Positions 9,978 to 36,112 of a DNA stretch of 41,065 nt are shown here, in pieces. Position 1 is the first letter of the stretch. Each line of letters begins with the position of its first letter. Under the pieces are notes generated by a model, which saw nothing but the letters and a program-made list of their open reading frames with translations, was not told where the DNA came from and ran no database searches. Source of the stretch: a virus. The position numbers were made by a program, and so were the translations under genes. The stretch spans positions 1-41,065 of the IMG/VR virus record IMGVR_UViG_3300042543_000436; one strand, written 5' to 3'.

Positions 9978-10409
9978 TTAGAACGGAACCCCGTCGTCAG
10001 CGCTTGCCCCGCTAGCGTCCCCAACGTCGGGGCCGCCGCCGTTTTCAATGGGAGAGAACGTATCGACGCGAGTCTGAACGTTTGACTCCCAAACCTCGTG
10101 CTTGACCGAAACCTGACACTTGCGGCCAATCAGCGTCGAAGGGTCAAGCTGAAACTCGCCCTCCTCCGGCACCGGCACACCAAGCGCCTTCAGCGCGAGA
10201 CCAACGCGCCAAAGAGCCTTCGGGGTCAGGTACAGGAACTCTCTAAGTCCCCTGCCGTTGTATTCGCCGCCCTGAATCTCTAGATCAAGCTCGATCTGCG
10301 GCGTTTGTTTCTTTGAACTGCGCCCTTCCTTCGCGTCAGTTACGACGACGGTGTAGGTGCCGGGACCAACGAGCGTCGGATCCTCAGCTTCGGAAAGGTC
10401 AATCTTCAT
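9978..10409 (-). CDS. SSB-like (DUF669-type) DNA-binding protein
   Basis: 143 residues from ATG 10409, with GAGGGAGAC just upstream; the longer open frame to 10640 lies inside the ATPase gene and is rejected. The core GPGTYTVVVTDAKEGRSSKK, IELDLEIQGGEY, GLREFLYLTPKALWRVGLAL and CQVSVKHEVWE matches the OB-fold layout of phage DUF669-like proteins that act as single-strand binding proteins with Sak4-type recombinases. The acidic Gly/Asp-rich tail ending DDGVPF is the typical SSB protein-interaction tip. It sits next to the Sak4-like ATPase, which supports the role. Confidence 0.75.
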   Translation of the reverse strand: MKIDLSEAEDPTLVGPGTYTVVVTDAKEGRSSKKQTPQIELDLEIQGGEYNGRGLREFLYLTPKALWRVGLALKALGVPVPEEGEFQLDPSTLIGRKCQVSVKHEVWESNVQTRVDTFSPIENGGGPDVGDASGASADDGVPF

Positions 10410-16501: not shown

Positions 16502-17113
16502 CTACCGCGTAACGCGGAGATAGTCGTTTACCTGGGACTTAGGGCGACGCTTCCTGTAGACACCATCGCCACCCGTCGCAGAATCCGAGACCGCGCCCGA
16601 AGCACCCGTGTTGCCTTCGATCGTCTCGATAAACGCGCCCTGATCACGCACGAACATTCCAACGTGATCAAACGTAAACCGCACAAGATCACCGGCAAGC
16701 GGCTTCTGAACACGCTTCACACCCACAACGCTTCCAAGAAGCCGGACGGCAGCCCACGAGCGAGTCACGGCCTTACTCCCGGCCCGCTGATAGCAGTACG
16801 CAACAAAGTCTCCGCACCAGGGTTCAGGCCCGGTGCCACCATTAGCGCGAATAATCTTCGAGACCATCGGCCCCTGATTGTTGCCGCCAATCTCCATCAC
16901 ACCAACCAACGACTCGGCAACATCGAGCGCACGAAGCCGCATCGGCAACGCACGCTTGCGCCAGAAATCAACGCGCTTCTGCGCGTAACGAACCTTGCGG
17001 CGCAGATACTCAACGCGCTTCCCGTTATGAGCCTTCTTCGCACGAGCGAGAGCGCGACGCCTATACGCAAGCCGCCACTCCCAAACCCGCAGATACCTCT
17101 TCGCTTTACTCAC
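16502..17113 (-). CDS. Endolysin with CHAP (amidase/peptidase) domain
   Basis: 203 residues, GTG start at 17113 with GGGGG upstream. The first 60 residues are extremely basic and helical (RYLRVWEWRLAYRRRALARA), unusual for an endolysin and perhaps a wall-polymer or membrane targeting segment. The CHAP domain follows: EPWCGDFVAYCYQRAG with catalytic Cys100, LVRFTFDHVGMFV with His150, and FIETIEGNTG with Glu/Asn near 166-168. It would cut peptidoglycan peptides or amide bonds. Located between an XhlA-like gene and the holin. Confidence 0.88.
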   Translation of the reverse strand: MSKAKRYLRVWEWRLAYRRRALARAKKAHNGKRVEYLRRKVRYAQKRVDFWRKRALPMRLRALDVAESLVGVMEIGGNNQGPMVSKIIRANGGTGPEPWCGDFVAYCYQRAGSKAVTRSWAAVRLLGSVVGVKRVQKPLAGDLVRFTFDHVGMFVRDQGAFIETIEGNTGASGAVSDSATGGDGVYRKRRPKSQVNDYLRVTR

Positions 17114-31394: not shown

Positions 31395-31717
31395 TAGGTG
31401 ATCTCAACCCCGGAGACCGTGATCGTCAGCTTCGACGCAACCTCACCCTGACTGCTCAACGTCTCGTTATTGCTCATAACGATAGACCCGTTGAACTCAG
31501 CCCAGCCACCCGCAGGAATCGTTGTCTGCGGGAGAATGAGATTGCTGTCAGCAGTCCCGGCCTGCCAGAGCTTCACCCACCTAGCCGACGTATCCGTGTT
31601 CACGATACGAATGCTCTTAACAATCGTCGAGTTGCCCGCAGTCGCGGGCGAAGTGTAAAGCGTCCCGGCCGACGAACCAGCCTGCGCCTGAGCTAATTTC
31701 TTGAAAGTTTCAGCCAT
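31394..31717 (-). CDS. Small beta-sandwich capsid/fibre-associated protein
   Basis: 107 residues from ATG 31717. MAETFKKLAQAQAGSSAGTL, STIVKSIRIVNTDTSARWVK, IPAGGWAEFNGSIVMSNNETLS and SKLTITVSGVEIT are strand-rich, as in small jelly-roll or decoration proteins in many actinophage genomes. It sits between the collagen-like fibre and the two paralogous fibres. Confidence 0.65.
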   Translation of the reverse strand: MAETFKKLAQAQAGSSAGTLYTSPATAGNSTIVKSIRIVNTDTSARWVKLWQAGTADSNLILPQTTIPAGGWAEFNGSIVMSNNETLSSQGEVASKLTITVSGVEIT

Positions 31718-31720
31718 AAC

Positions 31721-33316
<1,596 letters not shown>

Positions 33317-33359
33317 CTGACAACCTCAACGGAGAGCGGGGACGAAGAAGAACTGCGAA

Positions 33360-33428
33360 GGCGACGGCGGGGAATCGAACCCCGCCAAACCCGGAGTCCC
33401 AACAAGGGGACTCGTCCAGGGCGTCGCT
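33360..33428 (-). ncRNA. Compact tRNA-like RNA between capsid and fibre genes
   Basis: The 69-base element begins nine bases past the capsid stop. It has a T arm with 5-bp stem (CGGGG/CCCCG) and the canonical loop TTCGATT. A matching acceptor-like helix (GCGACG with CGTCGC) closes it, the outer base pair being A/C. Between them, in place of D and anticodon arms, is one long stem: CCTGG/CCGGG, a 3-base bulge, then AGTCCC/GGGACT with a 6-base loop (CTTGTT). No usable anticodon loop and no CCA. It resembles the tRNA-like part of tmRNA or viral tRNA-like structures rather than a tRNA gene. Confidence 0.6.
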
Positions 33429-33436
33429 GAACCTGC

Positions 33437-34354
33437 CTACGAAGCGTTCGTGATCTTGCTGAACGCGCCGTTGAGATCGTGGACGGCGAAACCGACCCTC
33501 ATCTCCCAAAGGACCGCAAGCTGATTGGTCTGCCAGAGGTTCACCGGAGTACCGCCAACGCTGACGGTCGCCTGATCGCTCGTCTTGACCGTAATATCGC
33601 TACGAATAGCGATCACGGCCTGAGACCAATCACCAACAACACCGGCAACCTTGCCAGCGCCAGCCGGGAACCCGTCCAGGTTAGACGAGTAATTAATCGG
33701 CAGGCCGTACAGGGTGTCCGGCTCGCGATTAAACCCAGCGGTGTAAACCGGGACGGTCGTCTCAACCGTGTTCCGGGCGTCGCGCAGGTGAGCGCGAACG
33801 TCCGAAGCGGCGACAACCGCGTTCGGGGAGTAGCCCGAACCCTCTACGTCCTCCATCGCGTCAGAGACGGCCTTAGCAAAAGCATCGCCAGTCGTGCCGA
33901 TCTCCGCGCTTTGAGTCGTATCGGTGATCTCGTCGTCAAAGTTGCCGGTGATCGCCGTACCGTTGGCGTATCCGAGCATATGAGCGTCGAGCTTGTCAGC
34001 AAAAGCGCCAACAACGTCGGGGGTAACGAGACGACGAGGGTCGTCCTGAGCGTCCTCTAGAAGCTCCTGCGTGTAGAGAACAATCGCGGCCAGCTTCTTG
34101 ACGTTAATCGTCAGGGAGCCAAACTCCGCGCCGGTAACGGGCTTCTCTGCCGCTTCATCGACAAAATCGACTTCGGGGCGGCCAGAGTAGACCGAGTAAA
34201 CACGCTGATTTGAGCCGATCCGCTCAACACGCGCCAGAGACGCGACGGCGGACTCACGACGAAGACCGTCAATGAGGGTTGCCCCGTACTCTTCCGGTAC
34301 GAGGATTCCGCCTGCGGCATCGGTCCCTTCAGCGAAGGGGATCTGATTAGCCAT
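33437..34354 (-). CDS. HK97-fold major capsid protein
   Basis: 305 residues from ATG 34354. Motifs of the HK97 family: AGGILVPEEYGATLIDGLRR, then the P-domain-like VTGAEFGSLTINVKKLAAIV, YTQELLEDAQDDPRRLV, and the end VAIRSDITVKT-type strands with VSVGGTPVNLWQTNQLAVLW. No N-terminal protease domain; the scaffold is a separate gene. AAGGAG lies 12 bases upstream in a small hairpin. The downstream tRNA-like element begins nine bases after the stop. Confidence 0.9.
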   Translation of the reverse strand: MANQIPFAEGTDAAGGILVPEEYGATLIDGLRRESAVASLARVERIGSNQRVYSVYSGRPEVDFVDEAAEKPVTGAEFGSLTINVKKLAAIVLYTQELLEDAQDDPRRLVTPDVVGAFADKLDAHMLGYANGTAITGNFDDEITDTTQSAEIGTTGDAFAKAVSDAMEDVEGSGYSPNAVVAASDVRAHLRDARNTVETTVPVYTAGFNREPDTLYGLPINYSSNLDGFPAGAGKVAGVVGDWSQAVIAIRSDITVKTSDQATVSVGGTPVNLWQTNQLAVLWEMRVGFAVHDLNGAFSKITNAS

Positions 34355-34363
34355 AGGTAATAT

Positions 34364-34377
34364 CTGCTCCTTAGCAG
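34364..34377 (-). promoter_or_regulatory. Hairpin holding the capsid gene ribosome site
   Basis: CTGCT AAGG AGCAG forms a 5-bp stem whose 4-base loop and first stem bases are the ribosome site AAGGAG. The distance to the ATG is 12 bases, longer than usual. The hairpin may limit or stabilise initiation of the most strongly needed virion protein. It is short and could be chance. Confidence 0.4.
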
Positions 34378-34388
34378 TTTTCGGTTAA

Positions 34389-35123
34389 CTAAATTGAGCG
34401 CTTTTGCGCTCGTAGCCGCCGTTCCCGGCGTTTGTTCAGCCGCTCTTTCCTACTGAGAGAACGTGGACCCGGTTCTTCGATTCCCGCCCGGTCACGGGTC
34501 GCGTAATACGCGAGAGCAGCGTCAGCCCGACCCTGGGGCCGGTCCTTTTGACGATGTTCAACGATGATCTTCTGACTCAGGTCAGCTTTAGGCATTCCGT
34601 GTAGCGGGTGCCAAAGCCAACGCCCGTCGCGAAGTTTCCAATGGTGGTGCGCCGGACCAACCTCAATGCCCCTGTAGGGGCGAAATAGCAGCGGGTGAAG
34701 GCTGATACCCGTCGTATTGTCCAGCGTGACGCACGCGACGCTTTCGCGAACGTCCTTCAGGGCTTCTCTCGCGCCCAGGTGGTCGGTGATAACAAAGTCA
34801 CCGTCCAGAATGAAAAACCAATCCCCAGCCTTGTTCGACGCGAGTCTTTCGCCGTAGCGAAACATCTTCTCTCGCTTCTCAACCTCCCCACCAACCCAAA
34901 CGGTTTCCGGAACGTAAAGGTTGAGTTCAATCCCAATTTCCTGACAGACGTCGCGAATAACGTCGTGACTGCGCTCACCGCTAGAGGGCTTGCCGCCGGG
35001 ATAAAGCTTGTAGGCACCATCGACCGCCACGAGCGCGTCAGCGAACCCCTGAAGACTGCCGATCGACTCCCTGAGCATTTCGTCTGTCTCGTCGTAAAAC
35101 GAGAGCAAGGCGACAATCCTCAT
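34389..35123 (-). CDS. Glycosyltransferase in the head module
   Basis: 244 residues, ATG at 35123 overlapping the ATP-grasp stop (ATGA). Start RIVALLSFYDETDEML, then GSLQGFADALVAVDGAYKL, VGGEVEKREKMFRYGERLAS and the DxD-type stretch WFFILDGDFVI show a GT-A (GT2-like) fold. A His-rich part (EVGPAHHHWKLRDGRWLW) and a very basic C-terminus (RLNKRRERRLRAQKRSI) follow. It sits directly before the capsid gene and is co-translated with the ligase. Glycosylation of a head protein is likely but not shown. Confidence 0.8.
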   Translation of the reverse strand: MRIVALLSFYDETDEMLRESIGSLQGFADALVAVDGAYKLYPGGKPSSGERSHDVIRDVCQEIGIELNLYVPETVWVGGEVEKREKMFRYGERLASNKAGDWFFILDGDFVITDHLGAREALKDVRESVACVTLDNTTGISLHPLLFRPYRGIEVGPAHHHWKLRDGRWLWHPLHGMPKADLSQKIIVEHRQKDRPQGRADAALAYYATRDRAGIEEPGPRSLSRKERLNKRRERRLRAQKRSI

Positions 35124-36112
35124 AGCGAAACGACTTGTGAACCCGAATCAAGTTCGCGATACCAAGCAACATCACTCGGCACAACTCGCGGCCCGCTCAT
35201 AGGCTCCCCACGAGCCGCCTCAACTAGCACCGCAGGAAGATTTACGCCGGTACTCGCAAAGTGATAACTCGTGGTCCCAAACCGGCCAGCGTTGATCTCC
35301 GTTAGCTTCGGAACGCCGTTGCGGTCCTCGCGCAAATCGAACATCAGAACGCCGTTAGCGCTCCCAGGCAAAGCCTCAACAACCCGGTAAACAACGTTGC
35401 GAACATCGAGCCGGTCAACCGTTACCTGAAGATTCGCAGTCGAAGCGACCCTCGCCGGGTTACGAGAAGCGCCGTGAAGCCGCAAACGCTCCTTCATTCC
35501 AAACGCGAGCAGTTTCCCGTCGCGCCAAACGCCCGTATAGGACAAGTCCTTACCGGGCAGGCGCTCGCTGATAACCCACTCCTCCGGCTCAATTCCGAAC
35601 CGGTCTCGATGGTGGTCAATCCACGCCTGAGCGATCCCAGCATCAGAAACGGGAAGAGCGCCAGAGGAACCCGCCCCTGACCGCAACCGAAGCCAACAAT
35701 CGCCGCCCAACTCGTCTATGACCTCACCAATCGGCTGATCTTCCGAGACAAGCCTTGTCTCCGGCGCGTCAGTCCCAGCAACAATCGCGGTTCGATACTT
35801 GTCCTGCGCCACAAACAACGCCGCCCGATCCGGGAGCATTGTCGGCGCGTTCAACTCGTGCGCGTGACGGGAGAGGTACTGAACCTCCGGGTCGGGCTGC
35901 GCGTGAACAAACCCAACGTCGTACCGGTCGATCAGATCATTCAAGACCTCAACCGGACGATCCGGGTCCACAAGCTCGCGAAACCTACCCCTAGCTACCT
36001 GAATAGCTACCGGGTCAACGTCAACCGCAACGGTTTCGTGACCCATTTCGTAGATCGCTCGCGTGAAGTTGATCCCAGCCGGTCCCCCAGCGCCCAGGAC
36101 AAGAACGCGCAC
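35120..36112 (-). CDS. ATP-grasp ligase (carbamoyl-phosphate-synthase-like)
   Basis: 330 residues, GTG start at 36112 sharing a base with the scaffold TAG. A pre-ATP-grasp Rossmann part (RVLVLGAGGPAGINFTRAIY, VAVDVDPVAIQ) leads to the ATP-grasp region: CWLRLRSGAGSSGALPVSD (Arg where Lys is usual), EWVISERLPGKDLSYTG, and GVLMFDLREDRNG with VPKLTEINAGRFGTTSY, the Mg-binding Glu and Asn. Such enzymes join a carboxylate to an amine or similar group with ATP. Its place between scaffold and glycosyltransferase suggests virion modification. Confidence 0.88.
   Translation of the reverse strand: MRVLVLGAGGPAGINFTRAIYEMGHETVAVDVDPVAIQVARGRFRELVDPDRPVEVLNDLIDRYDVGFVHAQPDPEVQYLSRHAHELNAPTMLPDRAALFVAQDKYRTAIVAGTDAPETRLVSEDQPIGEVIDELGGDCWLRLRSGAGSSGALPVSDAGIAQAWIDHHRDRFGIEPEEWVISERLPGKDLSYTGVWRDGKLLAFGMKERLRLHGASRNPARVASTANLQVTVDRLDVRNVVYRVVEALPGSANGVLMFDLREDRNGVPKLTEINAGRFGTTSYHFASTGVNLPAVLVEAARGEPMSGPRVVPSDVAWYRELDSGSQVVSL

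Follow-up and report, generated by a model that had tools for sequence, protein, structure and literature searches.

A tRNA-like RNA without an anticodon arm follows the capsid gene of an uncultured virus and belongs to a broader set of elements at phage gene junctions

The acceptor and T stems of a tRNA stack into a helix of 12 bp, and a 3' CCA aids cleavage by bacterial RNase P. In mitochondrial tRNA punctuation the excision is done by RNase P and RNase Z, and the same two enzymes process mascRNA and menRNA, tRNA-like structures at an RNA 3' end (that of MALAT1). The bacterial Y RNA YrlA imitates the T arm and the elbow and has no tRNA function. According to the available part of PMC11143913, RNase P is thought to measure the distance from the T loop to the 5' end, and hairpins reduced to acceptor stem, T stem and T loop are still cut at the correct site. 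The same excerpt names M3 RNA, the C4 antisense RNA of P1 and P7 and T4 gene 32 mRNA as phage substrates of RNase P and treats the processing of polycistronic mRNAs by this enzyme as already known (PMC11143913). Among the matches listed in a search of the open-access literature, the titles and beginnings of abstracts contained no description of anticodon-less tRNA-like elements at phage gene junctions.

The window, i.e. the whole stretch of DNA analysed here, is a virus record of 41,065 bases. A preliminary description had placed a tRNA-like RNA between its capsid and collagen-fibre genes; this RNA proved to be conserved, covarying and located on the minus strand, which is also the coding strand of both genes. 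The features of the locus are:

33437..34354, minus strand: major capsid protein (Pfam PF05065, E 7.7e-31; PHROG major head protein)
33361..33427, minus strand: tRNA-like element of 67 nt, from the acceptor 5' end to the acceptor 3' end (fold, conservation, covariance model)
33423..33427, minus strand: acceptor 5' strand GCGAC, partner of 33361-33365; in relatives both bases differ at two of the five pairs
33389..33422, minus strand: single bulged middle arm in place of D and anticodon arms, with GCCC, bulge UGGAC (33414-33418), 7-bp stem, loop CUUGUU, bulged C and GGGU (fold; four upper-stem pairs change on both sides)
33366..33386, minus strand: T arm whose 7-bp stem closes the loop UUCGAUU (33373-33379); in relatives both bases differ at two of the seven pairs
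33361..33365, minus strand: acceptor 3' strand GUCGC, the next base 3' being C at 33360 (fold, alignment of relatives)
33324..33327, minus strand: probable Shine-Dalgarno sequence GAGG of the fibre gene, read from the sequence
31721..33316, minus strand: collagen-like tail fibre (Pfam Collagen, E 2.9e-69; PHROG tail fiber)

We number the element from +1 at 33427 to the last acceptor base at 33361, with a discriminator-like C at 33360. The distance from the capsid stop to +1, given before as nine bases, was re-measured and is 9 nt. The fold likewise agrees with the canonical T arm, acceptor helix and one long bulged stem that had been proposed, the acceptor having 5 or 6 bp depending on the split: GCGAC/GUCGC is stacked straight on the stem of the T arm GGCGGGG-UUCGAUU-CCCCGCC, and the total of 12 bp can be read as 5+7 or 6+6. 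The middle arm has the sequence GCCC-(UGGAC bulge)-GAGUCCC-CUUGUU-GGGACUC-C-GGGU, for which folding gives an alternative shifted pairing of nearly equal energy. As in the T arm of a canonical tRNA, the loop follows UUCRANN and stacking on the acceptor gives 12 bp; this 12-bp acceptor/T-stem stack with a T loop is also the geometry of an RNase P substrate. The 7-nt anticodon loop of a canonical tRNA is missing, the middle-arm loops being CUUGUU, ACCGU or UGUU, and the acceptor is followed 3' by C-UUCG, so that an encoded CCA, and with it the RNase P-type 3' RCCA, is absent.

The TTG start of the fibre gene (33316; start codon picked from the sequence) lies 44 nt past the element, and in the related contig L006 the GTG start of the fibre gene is preceded by GGAGG. 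The minus-strand head operon runs in the order terminase, portal, probable minor head protein (Pfam VG15, slightly under the cut-off), scaffold, ATP-grasp-like, possible glycosyltransferase, capsid and collagen-like fibre. The possible glycosyltransferase gene (a reading of the sequence; no Pfam match) and the ATP-grasp-like gene (Pfam match under the cut-off) at 34389-36112 on the minus strand thus sit between scaffold and capsid, to our knowledge an unusual place for such genes.

On the minus strand the region folds with a z-score of -3.13, one of 200 shuffles being as stable, and the opposite strand also folds well (z -2.68). A descriptor combining T arm and acceptor matched once in the window, compared with a mean of 0.17 (at most 1) in shuffled windows. 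On its own, the window sequence is thus no more than suggestive. What decides the matter is that relatives keep the element in this location and show compensatory changes. ARAGORN found no tRNA gene in the window and none in 22 related loci, and a tRNA or tmRNA gene was accordingly rejected. Rfam 15 gave no family at the gathering threshold in the window or in the loci L138 and L133, and scores below gathering only in the stretches L148 and L151; membership in an Rfam family was rejected as well. The best sub-threshold match of the element was mascRNA-menRNA (RF01684; 18.3 bits, E 0.28, gathering score 42.5 bits), and tRNA-Sec (RF01852) reached 15.4 bits against a gathering score of 47 bits. 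A sub-threshold match to the plastid ycf2 leader (E 0.007) lay on the opposite strand of a Gordonia element.

Searches of IMG/VR with the capsid protein yielded eight other contigs with capsids of at least 64% identity (L002-L004, L005, L006, L039, L040 and L042), and the element is present 3' of the capsid stop in all eight; a capsid search of the genome contigs collection found no relative. L002-L004 have the same sequence as the window, and the element of L042 is identical to that of L039. The spacing from capsid stop to element is 8-13 nt (window, L005, L006, L039, L040, L042). In an alignment made by hand and fitted to the structure, with five rows of which two (window and L005) are nearly identical, eight base pairs change on both sides: two in the acceptor (one being A-U, G-U or G-C, the other C-G or A-U), two in the T stem (exchanges between G-C and C-G and between C-G and U-A) and four in the middle stem. 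In the four rows that differ most from each other, pairing is kept in 71 of 72 cells, compared with 51-65 of 72 in all nine derangements of the 3' strands; the single mispaired cell belongs to the T stem of L039, where L039 and L042 share a U-C mismatch. The stack measures 12 bp in the window, L005 and L040, 12-13 bp in L006 and 12 bp with the one U-C mismatch in L039 and L042. The covariance check on relatives for which the preliminary description had called thus shows changes in acceptor, T and middle stems, and neither of the outcomes set beforehand as refuting, namely no compensatory change or a proper tRNA, occurred, ARAGORN having come back empty. We regard the observation as confirmed, the element being real and on the minus strand. 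Its reading as a tRNA-like RNA is supported by the covariation and by the absence of an ARAGORN tRNA and of an Rfam family at threshold, and the interpretation offered in the preliminary description is partly supported.

The gene following the element encodes the collagen fibre in the window, L005 and L006, and a different protein of 149 residues with no PHROG match in L039, L040 and, judged by the identical flank, L042. Since a different downstream gene leaves the element in its place behind the capsid gene, the element seems to belong to the 3' end of the capsid mRNA, and this comparison of neighbours argues for a role there. A regulatory leader of the fibre gene is disfavoured for the same reason, and the earlier proposal that the element uncouples capsid from fibre expression was too narrow, because the next gene in L039, L040 and L042 is not a collagen fibre. 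In L041, with a capsid of 57-59% identity, one extra small gene separates the capsid gene from a cloverleaf-like fold (L041:5103-5170). Each of its two side arms has a 4-nt loop, and its T arm is set off from the acceptor by an additional base. Scans and inspection of the flanks revealed no T arm beside the capsid in L109-L115 (44-56% identity), L159 and relatives of about 40%, where L110, L111 and L115 are among the contigs that end less than 700 nt from the capsid gene.

Several capsid relatives of at most 56% identity carry, as judged by eye, plain strong hairpins at this site, so that a plain hairpin may serve the same job. This leads to the first alternative, that the element is a GC-rich 3' hairpin acting as a terminator or as a block to 3' exonucleases after a highly expressed capsid gene, its tRNA likeness being a by-product or a matter of stability. 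We consider this unlikely, though it is the main rival. It is favoured by the T-arm-less relatives L110-L113, L115 and L159, which by eye have other strong hairpins in the same place or one small gene further on, and intrinsic terminators without a U tract have reportedly been found in the actinophage phiC31, although the intergenic repeats of phiC31 that were inspected lack the T-arm form. Against it, an intrinsic terminator scan of 32900-34500 gave four sites, all of them elsewhere and none at the element, which also has no U tract in the sequence 3' of it. Moreover, a plain hairpin needs neither a UUCRANN loop, nor a 12-bp length built from two strands around an inserted arm, nor covariation in the acceptor.

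Exact-match search, pattern search and blastn of phage records led to other phages whose elements are smaller ("minis"), with acceptor and T stem of 4-8 bp each and a sum of 11-13, and with usually 8-20 nt, often a tiny arm with a GG loop, in place of the D and anticodon arms. A covariance model (R1) was built from the five capsid-linked sequences only, using as seed a MAFFT alignment that misplaces the L006 acceptor, and was run against 54 sources including its own seeds; the window element, itself a seed, scored 89.9 bits. Beyond the seeds it matched L139, L137, L038/L118, L133, L132, L141, L140, L138 and Gordonia phage VanLee (L147) with E-values from 2e-7 to 0.09, while in the same search the best true tRNA had E 0.3 and a likely chance match in L055 E 0.84. 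G001, of the second group described below, has no match to the window capsid. A simple descriptor asked for a UUCRANN loop, 11-13 stacked pairs and an insert of 6-45 nt; as it demands pairing, the pairing of minis is not independent evidence, but strand bias, position in gene gaps and comparison with shuffles are. As controls we used phages that had surfaced earlier for other reasons: ArV2 and ToastyFinz gave no descriptor match each, and Anubis, covered up to base 50,000 of 50,854, gave three, all annotated tRNAs and each also of 12 bp. In phiC31 the one match is an annotated tRNA-Thr.

Three candidates were rejected. MT835625 has a short match only. Pseudomonas phage AH02 (MZ501271, about 33430-33680; L144) has a different structure, a T arm within an inverted repeat, long and imperfect, that lies between genes and is possibly Y-RNA-like. 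The region 31424-31511 of phiC31 (NC_001978), considered as a degenerate element, is called by ARAGORN as a tRNA-Gly (ccc) with a long odd anticodon-side region and is unannotated in the record. The window element belongs to a broader set found at the gene junctions of phages, which includes:

NC_073474, 72.1-81.5 kb and 62140-62180 (L147), minus strand: 16 VanLee elements, almost one per gap of the leftward operon
KX815338, L151:1605-5885, coding strand: 7 elements of Streptomyces phage Joe with 5-bp acceptor and 6-bp T stem
L118:16284-16326 and about 17050-17095, L132-L141, L161: G001-type elements with variable stems

The earlier statement that no described family has this shape in a head operon held among the matches listed from the open-access literature, but the element is part of a class that extends beyond such operons: the VanLee and Joe elements seen lie outside them. 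In VanLee the descriptor gave 17 matches on the minus (coding) strand and none on the plus strand, with a mean of 0.07 in 30 dinucleotide shuffles. Sixteen of the 17 lie in gene gaps 2-88 nt past a stop, 14 of these within 24 nt; the remaining match (10160-10212), antisense inside the tail chaperone gene, is taken as chance. A descriptor match is present in 15 of the 17 gaps longer than 40 nt in the leftward operon at the right end, and the gap 74484-74660 holds a copy with, by eye, an imperfect T stem. VanLee also carries an annotated Ro-like RNA-binding protein and one tRNA-Arg. Elements occur in stretches of ObLaDi, Cafasso and Morgana too; 16 kb of ObLaDi contain eight on one strand and two on the other, where the genes likewise run that way. 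An annotated hypothetical gene of ObLaDi (gp146, OP297535 77015-77173) begins within an imperfect VanLee-like element (L148:7992-8037) and may be a false gene call or have a false start.

The seven elements of Joe all lie in gene gaps on the coding strand of its right 10.3 kb, with none on the other strand; six are within 15 nt past a stop, and six have the insert ACYGGCAGACA in common. A lone T arm of Joe (L151:1283) has a weak mascRNA match (26.2 bits, E 0.037). The elements are unannotated in the VanLee and Joe records, and a term search of the Joe genome paper (PMC5311408) showed no occurrence of tRNA, hairpin, terminator or intergenic. The second group (G001/L118, L132-L141) often shares the insert GCUUGGAGCGC but has variable acceptor and T stems. 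In six of ten G001-type elements the acceptor begins on the final base of an in-frame UAG, with 65-199 open codons upstream. The copy in L161, a contig of a Dehalococcoidia MAG, is identical to that of L138, and Halorubrum tailed virus 27 (MZ334522, L152:1488-1524), which is an archaeal virus, has one similar minihelix between two of its genes.

A scan without preference for 12 bp returned 64 matches, 43 of which had 12 bp, 12 had 13, four had 11 and five had 14-17; its score cut-off of 10.5 drops short ones, it includes near-duplicates and a few chance matches, and it leaves Joe out. The stack is 11 bp long in 7 of 7 Joe and 7 of 36 Gordonia elements, and the next outer pair is missing in 63 of 68 elements, for those of 11 bp partly by construction. 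Because the sum is constant although its division between acceptor and T stem varies, the elements fit a ruler rather than a conserved sequence. A conserved GG exceeds the expectation from insert composition in Joe (7 of 7, expected 3.3) and Gordonia (35 of 36, expected 27.8), and there is no such excess in the capsid-linked, G001-type or mixed groups. These counts of outer pairs, 11-bp stacks and GG composition leave out L040:2, L060:3795, L029:1555, L137:8344, VanLee:10160, L148:4519 and L038:16, removed by hand, and their "other" group of 11 consists of unchecked candidates, mostly loci fetched by a tRNA-like pattern. Hairpins with GG in the loop are found in 29 of 37 Gordonia inserts (17.7 after shuffling), 10 of 10 of the G001 type (6.9) and 2 of 7 of Joe (0.1). 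The conserved GG could dock to the T loop and thereby mimic a D loop. The minis whose folds were scored have weak z-scores (-1.1 to -1.6; L143:2484-2532, truncated at its 5' end, is left out), and the unconstrained minimum free energy fold loses a helix in 2 of 16 VanLee, 4 of 17 other Gordonia, 3 of 7 Joe and 2 of 10 G001-type elements, L040:2, L060:3795, L029:1555, L137:8344, VanLee:10160, L038:16, L148:2227, L148:9483, L149:9494 and L150:8893 being excluded and L148:4519 kept.

We see a nearly even chance that the elements are minimal tRNA mimics which would be cut by host RNase P, together with 3' tRNA nucleases, and thereby punctuate phage mRNAs. The window element imitates the upper half of a tRNA, i.e. 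acceptor and T arm with 12 bp, and carries a non-coding arm instead of the D and anticodon arms. From the observed structure, covariation, position, strand, recurrence and length of 11-12 bp we infer transcription, cutting and an effect on expression as follows. The element would be transcribed within the head operon mRNA, and its elbow and helix length would be recognised by tRNA-processing enzymes of the host. RNase P is predicted to cut at G33427, directly past the stop codon of the capsid gene, and the 3' end of the element may be processed by RNase Z or trimming exonucleases, so that the capsid mRNA would gain a defined, structured 3' end and be parted from the next cistron. Recruitment of RNase P or RNase Z is preferred because the acceptor/T-stem stack is exactly 12 bp long, and a cut releasing each upstream mRNA would agree with the placement directly past stop codons. 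The wider class would represent "tRNA punctuation" without tRNAs, in some phages at almost every gene gap. More tentatively, judging from sequence, anticodon-less minihelices cut by RNase P and RNase Z might be a general means of operon punctuation in several tailed-phage lineages, reached independently or by descent. This general reading, put forward with the same reserve, would include Streptomyces and Gordonia phages, uncultured relatives and possibly a haloarchaeal virus; some operons would have an element in nearly all gene gaps, each gene obtaining its own mRNA with a tRNA-like 3' boundary at the stop codon or directly past it. The missing encoded CCA, the 11-bp cases and the minis that lose a helix count against a simple punctuation model, and the UAG overlap in six of ten G001-type elements conflicts with it, since a cut at +1 would leave an incomplete stop codon.

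That the released tRNA-like RNA is itself the product, as a decoy or sponge that occupies enzymes which process or bind tRNAs or as a stable small RNA acting in trans, appears improbable to us. The many copies in some phage genomes (16 in VanLee) would suit such a role, whereas the window has one descriptor match only, the copies are placed directly past stop codons rather than arrayed, and, the T loop apart, the loops of the capsid-linked family are variable, so that a trans target is not evident. We are more doubtful still of a degenerate tRNA gene, or of a tRNA remnant stemming from recombination or from an attachment site. The T arm does resemble real tRNA T arms (phage tRNA-His matches), and the fold of L041 is a full cloverleaf-like one with a loop of 4 nt at the position of the anticodon loop; but the compensatory changes indicate a structure under selection, for which reason a tRNA pseudogene of host origin was rejected, the 22 related loci are negative for tRNA in ARAGORN, and the VanLee and Joe copies with their differing stems are not remnants of one tRNA. 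A tRNA mimic like bacterial Y RNA with a Ro-type protein as its binder is the least probable explanation: the annotated Ro-like protein of VanLee speaks for it, but the fold has no long basal stem under the tRNA-like part, Rfam gave no match, no Ro match was found by Pfam among the 10 window proteins scanned, and the 10.3-kb stretch of Joe has no Ro annotation.

If the elements are cut by RNase P, phages would have their mRNAs processed by the most conserved RNA enzyme of the host, and its natural substrates would here be about the size of the designed minimal hairpins. Punctuation would also explain why VanLee-type operons have gaps of a regular size, about 100 nt, and would constitute a new rule of phage gene expression. 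It would warn annotators who overlook the elements or call genes across them, and it would supply many natural sequences for probing the requirements of RNase P and RNase Z. Punctuation is directly testable in cultured Streptomyces and Gordonia phages.

Compared with the model hairpins of RNase P (AT1) in the available part of PMC11143913, the phage elements have the same stack of acceptor, T stem and T loop and likewise no anticodon domain. The model hairpins were designed and used in vitro, whereas the phage elements are natural, lack CCA and have a middle arm; as they keep the T loop and a continuous helix to the 5' end, we regard them as putative natural minimal substrates of RNase P and probably of RNase Z. 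The M3, C4 and T4 gene 32 RNAs are phage transcripts cut by host RNase P, as is predicted here, but they appear in the same excerpt as single RNAs, C4 being an antisense RNA, and not as a dispersed family at gene junctions (PMC11143913). Mitochondrial punctuation, as outlined in the accessible section of PMC8601606, also places tRNA-shaped RNAs between genes so that their excision frees the mRNAs. It uses real tRNAs, in contrast to the phage elements, which have no anticodon arm and cannot decode. The family of mascRNA and menRNA (RF01684) is the best sub-threshold Rfam match of the window element, but its members are products of animal long non-coding RNAs. In contrast to YrlA, no Ro-binding stem was seen, and the phage elements sit past stop codons. 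The enzymes and the principle are known; judged by the matches listed from the literature, the form, position and scale of the elements are new.
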